From Slackia sp. (lineage in GTDB: Bacteria; Actinomycetota; Coriobacteriia; Anaerosomatales; Anaerosomataceae), in assembly GCA_020725885.1 (NCBI GenBank), contig DYEA01000007.1, forward strand, positions 248,001 through 312,000: 64,000 bases of DNA. The letters run 5' to 3'. Within the stretch, counting starts at the first letter, position 1; the number at the start of each line of letters is the position of its first letter. The notes beneath the pieces are model-generated. The model was given only the letters and a program-made list of their open reading frames with translations, was not told the origin of the DNA and did no database searches. Positions 27,161 to 54,943 of the stretch are shown here, in pieces. The position numbers and the translations under genes are program-made.

Positions 27161-27987
27161 CGCTCGATGCCTTTCACCGTCACCGGTATGAATCCGGCGT
27201 CGCGGACGACCTTCTCCTGAACCTCCGGAGAGAGCACGTGATCGATGAACTCCTTGACCAGCCCCTTCGGCTCGCCCTTCGTGAAGAAGTGCAGCACGCG
27301 GCTGACGGGATACCGCCCCTCGACGACGGCCTCTTCCGAAGGCTCGACGCCGTCGATCGCAAGCGCTTTGACCTCCGGAGTGACGAATCCGAGCGAGATG
27401 TAGCCGATGGCGCTGGGCGCTTGCGCGACGACCGAGCGGACCTGCCCCGTCCCAGGCAGGATGACCGCGGTCGGGTCGAATCGTTCCTTGTCGAGCACGA
27501 TCTTCGAGAAGGCCTCACGGGTGCCCGAGGCCTCGTCACGGTTCACGACGCCGATCTCCAGGTCGGGACCGCCGACCTCTTTCCAGTTCGTGATGCGGCC
27601 CTCGAAGATCGCCTTCACCTGCTCTTTCGTCAAACCGTCGACGGGATTGGACGGGTTGACGATGACCGCGATCGCGTCGTACGCGATCGGCGTGTCCACG
27701 AGCCCGTACTCGAGCTCGTCGCCCTTCAAGTCCCGTGAGGAGGTGCCGATGTCGCTCGTGCCTGCCACGACGTTCTCGATCCCGGCCGAAGAGCCCACGC
27801 CGCTCACCAAGACGTGGACGCCGGCGTGCGTGCGCTCGAACCCCTCTTTCGCCACCTCGGCGATCGGCTGGACGGTGGTCGAACCAGTCACGATGACCTG
27901 GTCGGCAGCGTGCTGCCCGTTGCCGTTGCACCCGGCGAGCAAGAGGAGCAGTGCGGCGCCGATGACGGCCGCTACGCCACGATGCAC
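27157..27987 (-). CDS. pstS: Phosphate-binding lipoprotein PstS
   Basis: PstS (276 aa) captures phosphate outside the membrane. The GTG at 27987 gives a short lipoprotein signal (VHRGVAAVIGAALLLLLAGC) with lipobox LAGC. The phosphate-binding loops are visible: VTGSTTVQPIAE, SGVGSSAGIENV, SRDLKGDE and NRDEASGTREAF. No good ribosome site precedes this GTG and the gene overlaps the end of pgeF by 16 bases, so it may rely on translational coupling. Placing pstS directly after pgeF inserts the phosphate operon in the conserved pgeF-yggS junction. Confidence 0.93.
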   Translation of the reverse strand: MHRGVAAVIGAALLLLLAGCNGNGQHAADQVIVTGSTTVQPIAEVAKEGFERTHAGVHVLVSGVGSSAGIENVVAGTSDIGTSSRDLKGDELEYGLVDTPIAYDAIAVIVNPSNPVDGLTKEQVKAIFEGRITNWKEVGGPDLEIGVVNRDEASGTREAFSKIVLDKERFDPTAVILPGTGQVRSVVAQAPSAIGYISLGFVTPEVKALAIDGVEPSEEAVVEGRYPVSRVLHFFTKGEPKGLVKEFIDHVLSPEVQEKVVRDAGFIPVTVKGIER

Positions 27988-28829
27988 GCGAGTGCGGCGT
28001 GGCGCCCGGTGCGCCCCTCGGCCCGGTAGGAGAAGAATCGCTCGGTGTTGTGCGCGGTGCAGATGCCGAGGTGACACTGGCGCTCTCTCGGGACTCCTGA
28101 AGACTCGAGCTCCTCGGCTGCCGCCGCTCCCAAGTCGAGGACGGCGGAAGCCCGGCGTATCGTAACAAACTTGTTAGCGAATTGCGACACGACTTCCGGC
28201 CCGACCTCGTAGCAGCACGGCCCGATGTGAGGGCCGACGTACGCGACGAGGTCCTCGTCAGGAGACGTCGCGGAGCGGAGCGCGGCGACTGCGTTCCGGA
28301 CGACGCCTGCTGCCAGCCCCCTCCACCCCGCGTGGGCGACCGCCACGGCGCGCGCCCGCTCAGCCACGACGACGACAGGCACGCAGTCCGCGTACAGGAG
28401 CATGAGCGGAATGCCGGCCTGCGTCGTGACGAGCGCGTCAGTCTCCGGCACCGGAGAGACGCCTCCTGCGGCATGGGCGCCTCGACCGGCGTCGCGCGGC
28501 TGCACGATCCGCACGGCTGCCCCGTGCACCTGCTGGGCGCAGGTCAGACGGTCGCGACGGTCGGCCAGGTCGAGGGCGTCCAAAAAGCGTCGCCGGTTCT
28601 CGTCCACCGCGTCCGGCTCGTCACCGACGTGCGCGGCGAGGTTGAGCGACGCGTACGGAGGCCCGCTGAGACCGCCCGTCCGCTCGCTGAACGCCACGAC
28701 GATGCCGGCCCGCTCGCGAAGCGACCGGTCCTCGTGCCACGCGAGGCCATCGCGGACCACCCGGACGAGAGATGGCTCCCCGCCGGGGCTCGACGTAAGA
28801 CCCTGTGGCTTGCTGCCTGAGACGTCCAT
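27972..28829 (-). CDS. pgeF: Purine nucleoside phosphorylase / laccase-domain protein (YfiH/YlmD)
   Basis: This 285-aa protein belongs to the YfiH/YlmD multicopper-oxidoreductase-like family. Members have purine nucleoside phosphorylase/deaminase activity, and PgeF edits mis-incorporated peptidoglycan residues in E. coli. The zinc-binding residues lie in QVHGA, LLYADCVPVVV, AVAHAGWRGL and GPHIGPCCYEVG. I chose ATG 28829; earlier in-frame starts run into the divergent promoter region. There is no ribosome site, but TACTGT sits exactly six bases before the ATG, suggesting a leaderless transcript. Unlike most genomes it is separated from ftsZ by a plus-strand gene. Confidence 0.88.
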   Translation of the reverse strand: MDVSGSKPQGLTSSPGGEPSLVRVVRDGLAWHEDRSLRERAGIVVAFSERTGGLSGPPYASLNLAAHVGDEPDAVDENRRRFLDALDLADRRDRLTCAQQVHGAAVRIVQPRDAGRGAHAAGGVSPVPETDALVTTQAGIPLMLLYADCVPVVVVAERARAVAVAHAGWRGLAAGVVRNAVAALRSATSPDEDLVAYVGPHIGPCCYEVGPEVVSQFANKFVTIRRASAVLDLGAAAAEELESSGVPRERQCHLGICTAHNTERFFSYRAEGRTGRHAALACIVA

Positions 28830-28841: not shown

Positions 28842-28930
28842 GCGGACATGGCCCGAGTCGTGCACAATGGAAGTGCAAGCAGGCGCACGTCCCGCCATGC
28901 TCGCGACTGCTGATGAAAGGGGGTGATCGC

Positions 28931-29481
28931 ATGAAGCAGTCACTCAAGCGCGTCGCCCCGTCGCCGTCGGCATCGCGACCCTCCTGCCCGCTACCCAGGC
29001 GTTTGCGCAGTACGAAGGCGACGACGGAGCCGCTCTCGGAGCGGTGTGCGGCATCTACGCGTGCCTCGGCATCTTTGGGCTGTTGTCATTGGTCTTCTGG
29101 ATCTGGATGCTCGTCGACTTGATCCAGCGCCAGGAGTACGAGTTCCCGAACTCTCGGGGAAACAGCAAGACCACGTGGCTCATCATCATGGCAGTCTCGT
29201 GGTTCGTGGGAGCGGCGCTCATCGCTGCCGTCGTCTACTACTTCATGGTGTACAAGAAGGTGAAGCGCGGCAGCGTCACTGCCCCGGCTCAAAGCGCCGC
29301 GTACGCGCCTCCGCCTCCGGCGCCGCCAGCGCCGCCGGCACCCCCGGCCCCGCCGGCCCCGCCGGCTGCTCCCCCGGCGCCCCCCGCACCACCGGCGCCT
29401 CCAGCGCCACCTGCACCACCCGCACCGCCTGCTCCACCGGCGCCTCCAGCGCCCCCTGCGCCGCCGGAAGCACCTGAATGA
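28931..29481 (+). CDS. Secreted/membrane protein with long Pro-Pro-Ala tail; apparent frameshift in signal peptide
   Basis: The ATG at 28931 has a strong GGGGGTGA site but, read straight through, gives a nonsense frame ending at 29122. The frame shifted by one base after about codon 9 encodes a classical signal peptide (VAVGIATLLPATQAFA) and continues uninterrupted to 29481 (counted from GTG 29044, 145 aa). One extra C in the CCCC run at 28956-28959 would join both parts into one protein of about 184 aa. The mature part has two membrane helices (LGIFGLLSLVFWIWMLVDLI; WLIIMAVSWFVGAALIAAVV), vaguely like the PLDc_N (phospholipase D N-terminal) domain. A tail of about 60 residues, almost all Pro-Pro-Ala, follows. 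It lies on the plus strand between pgeF and ftsZ, convergent with ftsZ. Function unknown. Confidence 0.7.
29308..29469 (+). repeat. Tandem codon repeat encoding (Pro-Pro-Ala)n
   Basis: About 160 bases are built from degenerate CC(N)-CC(N)-GC(N) triplets, encoding roughly 17 Pro-Pro-Ala units with one interruption. Third positions vary, so the repeat is maintained at protein level and is not a recent DNA slippage product, though it could still expand or contract. Confidence 0.85.
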
Positions 29482-29495
29482 GTCCTGCACGTGCC

Positions 29496-29534
29496 GAGCG
29501 GGCCGCACCCTCCTCGCGAGAGTGCGGCCCGCTC
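29496..29534. terminator. Bidirectional hairpin between the proline-rich gene and ftsZ
   Basis: A perfect 13-bp stem (29496-29508 with 29522-29534, GAGCGGGCCGCAC) and 13-base loop lies between the convergent stop codons at 29481 and 29557. There is no long T-run on either strand. Position and stem strength suggest that it ends both transcripts. Confidence 0.7.
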
Positions 29535-29556: not shown

Positions 29557-30636
29557 CTATCTGCCTTTCAGGAACTCGGGGATGTCGTACTCGTCCTCCG
29601 GAATCGTCGTCCTGACGGGCTCGAACGTCGGAATCGCGGGCCCGGCCTCCAGAGGATTCTCGAACTGCATCGTCTCCTGCTTGCGCTTCGCACCGAAGCC
29701 GGTGGCGATCACGGTGACACGGATCTGGTCCATCATCGAGTCATCGATCACGGCGCCGAAGATGATGTTCGCATCCGGCGCTGCCGCCGCCTGGACGACT
29801 TCCGCGGCCTCGTTGACCTCGAACAGCCCGAGGTCGCTGCCGCCGGTGATGCTGAGCAGGACGCCCTGCGCGCCCTCGATGCTGCTCTCCAGGAGCGGGC
29901 TCGAGATCGCAGCCTTGGCGGCCTCGTGCGCGCGGTTCTCGCCGCTCGCAAGCCCGATGCCCATGAGCGCCGAGCCGGCGTCCTTCATGATCGTCCGGAC
30001 ATCGGCGAAGTCGAGGTTGATCAGGCCTGGCACGGTGATCAGGTCGGTGATGCCCTGCGTGCCTTGGCGGAGGACGTCATCCGCGATGCGGAACGCGTCC
30101 AGGATCGTCGTCTTGCGCTCGGCGACCTGCAACAGCCGGTCGTTCGGGATCACGATGAGCGTGTCGACGTGCTCACGGAGGCGCTTGATGCCCTCCTCCG
30201 CCTGCAGCGCGCGCTTGCGGCCCTCGAATGCGAACGGCCGCGTCACGACCGCGACCGTCAGCGCACCCAGCTCCTCTTTTGCGATCTGAGCGATCACTGG
30301 GGCAGCCCCCGTGCCCGTACCGCCACCCTCGCCAGCAGTGATGAACACCATGTCTGCGCCCTGGAGCGCCTCTTTGATCTCCGCCCGGCTCTCCTCCGCC
30401 GCCTGCAACCCGACGTCGGGATCCGCGCCAGCGCCTAGACCCTTGGTGAGACCCACGCCGATGTGCACCTTGTAGTCAGCATCGGACATGAGCAGCGCCT
30501 GGGCGTCGGTGTTGATGGCGATGAATTCGACGCCTTTCACACCTGCTTCGACCATGCGGTTGACGGCGTTGGTACCTCCTCCGCCCACGCCGACGACCTT
30601 GATGACCGCCAGGTAGTTCGCCCCCGTCTCCAGCAT
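29557..30636 (-). CDS. ftsZ: Cell division protein FtsZ
   Basis: FtsZ (359 aa) polymerises into the Z-ring. The tubulin signature [13 protein letters not shown] is at about residue 100, the T7 loop synergy segment [11 protein letters not shown] near 203, and the N-terminal [17 protein letters not shown] is intact. The conserved C-terminal peptide ([13 protein letters not shown]) that binds SepF/FtsA is preserved, with a short linker. The ATG at 30636 follows GGGAGGCTGAG. A promoter-like region about 50 bases upstream indicates separate transcription from the mur genes. Confidence 0.97.
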
Positions 30637-53727: not shown

Positions 53728-54840
53728 CTATAGCAGCTTCTCGAGCGGCGTGTAGTTCATTCCGTGCGCGTCGGCGACAGGCTTGTACGTGATGTTTCCG
53801 TCCAAGACGTTCACGCCTTTCGCGAGCGCGGGGTCGTCGAGCACGGCCTGCTTCCAGCCCTTGTCCGCGATCGCCAACCCGTACCGGAGCGTCGCGTTCG
53901 TGAGCGCGAGCGTCGAGGTGTTCGGGACCGCGCCCGGCATGTTCGCGACGCCGTAGTGCAGCACGCCGTCGACCACGTACGTCGGATCAGCATGCGTCGT
54001 CGGATGCGTCGTCTCGATGCACCCGCCTTGGTCGACCGAGACGTCGACCACGACCGCGCCCTTCTTCATGTGCTTGAGCATCTCGCGCGTGACCAGCCAC
54101 GGCGTCTTCGCGCCCGGCAGCAGCACGGCGCCGATCACGAGATCGGCCTGGTAGACGGCCTCCTCGATGTTGTGCTTGCTCGAGTACAGAGTCCGGATGC
54201 GGTTGCCCCAGATCTCGTCGAGATAGCGCAACCGGTCGATGTTGATGTCCATGACCGTCACGTTCGCGCCCATGCCCATCGCGACGTACGTCGCATTCGT
54301 GCCCACGACGCCGCCGCCAAGGACGACCACGTTCGCCGGCAGCACGCCGGGCACGCCGCCCATCAGCACGCCGCGACCGCCGAACGGCTTCTGCAGGTAC
54401 GTGGCGCCGACCTGCGCGGCCATGCGGCCCGCGACTTCCGACATCGGCGCCAGCAGCGGCAGCGTGCCGTTCGGGAGCTCGACGGTCTCGTACGCGATAC
54501 ACACAGCGCCCGACTTGATGAGCCCTTGGGTCTGCGGCAGGTCTGGCGCGAGGTGCAGGTAGGTGAAGAGGATCTGGCCGGGCCTGAGCATCTCGATCTC
54601 GACTGCCTGCGGCTCTTTGACCTTCACGATCATCTCGGCGCGCGCGAAGACCTCTTCGGCGGTGTCGACGAGCTCGGCGCCCGCTGCTGCGTACGCCTCA
54701 TCGGTGAACGACGAGCCCTCGCCGGCGGAGCGCTGCACGAGCACGTGGTGGCCGTGGTGCACGAACTCGCGCACACCGCCCGGCGTCATGCCGACGCGGT
54801 ACTCGTTGTTCTTGATCTCCTTAGGAACGCCGACGATCAT
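53728..54840 (-). CDS. ald: Alanine dehydrogenase
   Basis: This 370-aa enzyme interconverts alanine and pyruvate plus ammonia with NAD(H). The N-terminal [16 protein letters not shown] motif, the NAD-binding [20 protein letters not shown] and catalytic residues (Lys in VKVKEPQ, His in YLHLAPD) are intact. ATG 54840 has AAAGGA eight bases upstream. It is separated by 103 bases from DUF3866, so it may have its own promoter. The hairpin after its stop isolates it from xerD. Confidence 0.95.
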
Positions 54841-54943
54841 CGCTCGTCCTTTCCCCGCCTGGCCGCCGAATCGAACGCTCGCGCCTCCGGTTCGTCCGCG
54901 GACGGAAGCCGCAAGCACGGAACGCACCTGAACAGTGTATCAC

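Follow-up and report, generated by a model that had tools for sequence, protein, structure and literature searches.

A conserved candidate envelope-protein gene beside ftsZ in Anaerosomatales, interrupted by an apparent single-nucleotide deletion

Between pgeF and ftsZ in a Slackia sp. assembly (contig DYEA01000007.1) lies a gene whose start and body are read in different frames, which raises the question of whether the split belongs to the living gene, to a recent loss or to the assembled sequence. The window (the whole stretch of DNA analysed, 64,000 nucleotides) was read for open reading frames. ATG 28931, preceded by AAAGGGGGTGATCGC, encodes MKQSLKRVAP in frame 2, the reading being MKQSLKRVAPSPSAS...; as the sequence stands, translation from this start would run on in frame 2 to the stop at 29122 and no membrane protein would be made. 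Frame 1 carries VAVGIATLLPATQAFAQYEGDDG..., both helices and the Pro-Pro-Ala tail from 28960 to TGA 29479-29481. Its upstream limit is TGA 28924-28926, and no ATG, GTG or TTG was found in frame 1 between that stop and GTG 29044. The original prediction held that start and body lie in separate frames, to be joined by one extra base in a CCCC run at 28956-28959. This was borne out by DNA alignment, in which the window was exactly 1 nt shorter than the sister copies in G001 and G003 at GCCCC, with the run where it had been placed, and otherwise aligned with them residue for residue. The frame-2 peptide MKQSLKRV matched the start of the G003 gene at 8/8 residues and the frame-1 part was 80-83% identical to the continuous protein of the sisters; the two-frame split is therefore not a product of chance. 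We read the locus as a conserved gene, predicted to encode an envelope protein, from which one nucleotide is missing around codons 9-10. The features of the locus are as follows.

27972-28829, minus strand: pgeF (peptidoglycan editing factor), divergent neighbour; TIGR00726 above cut-off.
28915-28926, plus strand: Shine-Dalgarno-like block GAAAGGGGGTGA, kept ahead of the start in nearly all orthologues as an A(G/A)GGGGGTGA-like block.
28931-28954, plus strand: gene start in frame 2, MKQSLKRV, putative signal-peptide n-region; same as MKQSLKRV in G003.
28955-28959, plus strand: GCCCC, 1 nt short of the sisters in alignment (G001 GTAGCCCCTGTC, G003 GTCGCCCCCCTTGTC, window GTCGCCCCGTC).
28960-29007, plus strand: remainder of the putative signal peptide, read in frame 1 as VAVGIATLLPATQAFA and bearing an AxA-type cleavage motif; the family consensus here is ..AAPAFAQ(D/E)Y.
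29044-29260, plus strand: two helices predicted to cross the membrane, PLDc_N-like, with the loop DLIQRQEYEFPNS-GNSK conserved; helices 23-56 and 69-105 of a low-confidence model.
29312-29467, plus strand: Pro-Pro-Ala tail, a 9-bp imperfect tandem repeat of 74-90% GC; from sequence composition and repeat analysis.
29557-30636, minus strand: ftsZ, convergent neighbour; TIGR00065 above cut-off.

Relatives were found in 40 of 61 related genomes searched and in 46 of 69 genomes of the order by profile search. The full family occupied the pgeF-ftsZ locus in 34 Anaerosomatales genomes (including G037, where a contig end truncates it to a fragment); outside the order no match was obtained among 248 genomes of the class, and viral contigs held no relatives. 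We define this set here as the Anaerosomatales pgeF-ftsZ spacer protein family. Its members have in common the motif MK(Q/R)S, a hydrophobic core with AxAFAQ(D/E)Y at its end, the RQExEFPNS-GNSK loop and a tail rich in proline, and they almost always lie between pgeF and ftsZ in opposite orientation to both. pgeF adjoined the gene and pointed away from it in 29/29 checked loci of this kind, and ftsZ followed, convergent, in 27 (all those where the contig reaches far enough). The window gene has each of these traits (signal peptide, hairpin with RQExEfPnS-G-SK, Pro-rich tail, position in the spacer on the opposite strand), its signal peptide being interrupted by the frameshift. Given the conserved pgeF and ftsZ flanks, this conserved, undescribed family is one that has long been established at the division locus. 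The earlier description of the gene as lineage-specific thus stands at the level of the order, while its description as inserted does not, the gene being an old neighbour of ftsZ in the same place in 34 genomes. In G007 (L200 and L038) the gene is tandemly duplicated between pgeF and ftsZ, and the second copy seems to start at GTG (MRDRLTRVAAPLTG...). Relatives with a Pro-rich tail and no signal peptide lie away from pgeF and ftsZ in G059 (L181) and G063 (L182). A shorter second paralogue (about 110-150 aa), also lacking the signal peptide, was seen in many genomes of the order (G004:C4:64438-64713, G017:C21:262476-262754 and similar) and no copy of it turned up in the genome that holds the window.

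The genus comprises G000 to G003, and the congeners compared with the window were G001, G002 and G003. The gene was continuous in a single frame in two of these three (G001 MKQSVKRVAPVLVAAGTLLPAAQAFAQ, G003 MKQSLKRVAPLVVAITTLLPAAQAYAQ) and in about 28 further orthologues. G002 was continuous at the window's break and carried its own single-base frameshift, with a TGA, about 30 codons later, while G010, from another genus, was 1 nt short after YGSS; apart from these two and the window, all readable orthologues were intact. As the G002 and G010 frameshifts differ from each other and lie at other positions, there is no conserved shift site. This bears on programmed -1 frameshifting, by which both frames would be joined in translation. 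By sequence inspection a -1 slip of the tRNA from CCG to CCC at 28957-28960 would give exactly the family length; however, G001 and G003 need no shift and G002 and G010 shift elsewhere. Moreover, C GCC CCG does not fit the X XXY YYZ pattern of a slippery heptamer, because the GCC tRNA cannot re-pair with CGC, and the downstream RNA fold was not more stable than shuffled sequences (z +0.84). With slippery heptamer, structure and conservation all missing, recoding is scarcely credible. The C run was 4 long in G001 and in the window and 6 long in G003. On/off phase variation at the run would account for such variation in length, and for several family members being out of frame, but the run-length differences among the intact sisters preserve the frame, which is single in each, and the G002 and G010 frameshifts lie away from the run. 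Runs known to slip at a high rate are also far longer than four Cs, and we consider phase variation highly improbable. Nor is it at all likely that the protein starts internally at GTG 29044 and has no signal peptide. The relatives in G059 and G063 do lack one, with ATG directly before YGNYPTG. However, GTG 29044 is GTC in G001 and G002 and so is not conserved as a start, GGAG stands only 2 nt before it, and the signal-peptide half ahead of it is conserved as protein. The original prediction had named sister genes starting at this GTG, with no signal-peptide homology, as the result that would count against it, and this was not seen. With recoding, phase variation and an internal start disfavoured, a real recent deletion or an artefact is left; of the options originally listed, the evidence leaves standing the recently broken gene and the sequencing error.

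Purifying selection has clearly left its mark on the window copy, both before and after the break. Values were dN 0.086 and dS 0.685 against G001 (dN/dS about 0.13) and dN 0.131 and dS 0.713 against G003, and the codons ahead of the shift differed from those of G003 by one synonymous change only. The relaxed selection that marks a pseudogene after its lesion was not found in this copy. A lesion of very recent date would leave no such trace; one dating back further than a small part of the lineage is unlikely, since more amino-acid changes would be left.

We consider an assembly or consensus indel the most likely cause of the break, with a probability of roughly one half. It is favoured by the single frame of G001, G003 and about 28 further orthologues, by the intact selection, by assembly breaks at the locus and by the high GC content. 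The break site lies in 73%-GC DNA about 350 bp upstream of the 90%-GC repeat. Assemblies end inside or next to the gene in 5 of the 34 genomes (G003, G006, G037, G048 and G061) against 1.2 ends expected, about four times more (Poisson P = 0.007). The missing nucleotide would most likely be a consensus or assembly error in a GC-rich stretch, and the organism probably holds the gene intact. The G002 and G010 assemblies are of modest quality, the latter having 7.7x coverage and the former (EMTCatB1) being a Velvet assembly of a down-sampled metagenome closed with a gap filler (PMC5347234). Against an assembly error, no confirmed frameshift was found among 116 other orthologues compared with G001 on the window's 410-kb contig, on which the background rate rests (upper bound 2.5% frameshift per gene), and the contig passes through the repeat unbroken. 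Two candidate frameshifts among the 116 were not confirmed, one being read as the untranslated leader of a cold-shock gene and the other as an ambiguous ORF extension; frameshift counts for G010 versus G017 were unreliable, as leader sequences also align.

A very recent loss-of-function deletion in the strain or population, in a dispensable gene that decays now and then, is a close second, a serious if somewhat less probable account. G020, G009 and G040 cleanly lack the gene between pgeF and ftsZ (gaps 144-267 bp); it is thus dispensable, so that a real loss is not implausible. The different frameshifts in G002 and G010 and the lack of any other confirmed frameshift in the window's genome also speak for loss. 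After the G002 frameshift, G001 and G002 differ by 5 amino-acid and 0 silent changes, as in a gene free of selection, versus 6 and 89 in ftsZ (Fisher P = 6e-6) and 9 and 12 in pgeF (P = 0.04). Clustered assembly errors might, however, also account for these changes, and the lack of relaxed selection in the window copy means that its loss must be very recent. Elsewhere in G002 (L140-L145), the counterpart of a 400-aa window gene (53728-54927) is split into two ORFs of 239 and 145 aa, which may mark a further broken or misassembled gene. With three frameshifts among 34 copies, the family exceeds an assumed rate of 1% per gene (P = 0.005), and it still does so when the window copy, which was selected for its frameshift, is omitted (P = 0.04); such an excess would be expected from a difficult locus and from a dispensable gene alike. 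It is unlikely that the locus is a hot spot where small indels turn the gene off time and again, so that a surface protein beside ftsZ is shed reversibly or adaptively; this reading rests on three different indels among 34 genomes, of which two fall in a single genus of four. An assembly or consensus error remains our preferred reading, and it and a recent loss both have familiar counterparts, since single-base indel pseudogenes and draft-assembly indels likewise present a 1-nt frameshift in a conserved gene with intact copies in sister species.

In its intact form the signal peptide would send the N-terminus out, the hairpin would hold the protein in the membrane and the Pro-rich tail would be exposed on the membrane's outer face. 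This topology follows from the cleaved signal peptide and the two helices, although KKVKR after helix 2 argues against an outside tail by the positive-inside rule. The tail repeat comprises 17 copies of 9 bp, reaching 90% GC, and the Pro-Pro-Ala tail is the sole run of such a pattern in the genome. A long Pro-Pro-Ala tract would require elongation factor P for its translation. The predicted structure had three helices at low confidence (pLDDT 60, pTM 0.36); a fold search with it gave no match at E below 0.7, and a PDB sequence search gave nothing useful. Pfam matches to holin 3_6, DUF2516 and 7tm_1 fell below their own cut-offs and were read as generic helix matches. The protein is without a confident family assignment. 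The nearest likeness is to PLDc_N (Pfam PF13396), small membrane proteins with two helices and a conserved W-x(2)-D-x(3)-R-type junction common to both. PLDc_N matched 9 of 15 family members at E <= 0.1 (best E 4.9e-8), while the window protein scored 20.5-21.3 bits, below the gathering cut-off of 23.3; it lacks a phospholipase domain and carries in addition a signal peptide and the Pro-Pro-Ala tail. At 29500-29530, in the gap between the gene and ftsZ, lies a 9-bp inverted repeat with perfectly matching arms (GGGCCGCAC...GTGCGGCCC), possibly a shared two-way terminator without a T run. A consensus scan found neither a promoter nor a T-tailed terminator.

Other families of the order have DUF4013 (PF13197) proteins with a similar Pro-rich tail in this pgeF-ftsZ slot, at the following loci.

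L202:2416-3273, L212:2445-3389, L213:2476-3276, L214:2433-3227, L210:632-1390 (-): DUF4013 protein with Pro-rich tail at the pgeF-ftsZ slot.

These differ in having an unrelated multi-helix membrane domain, with 0 matches to the window gene's family, and the comparison suggests that the membrane domain was swapped and the tail kept. As the slot carries a similar tail even with a DUF4013 domain, selection may act on the tail rather than on the anchor. The frameshift as such is unremarkable; the more lasting result is an undescribed, order-wide family of predicted envelope proteins tied to the ftsZ locus.
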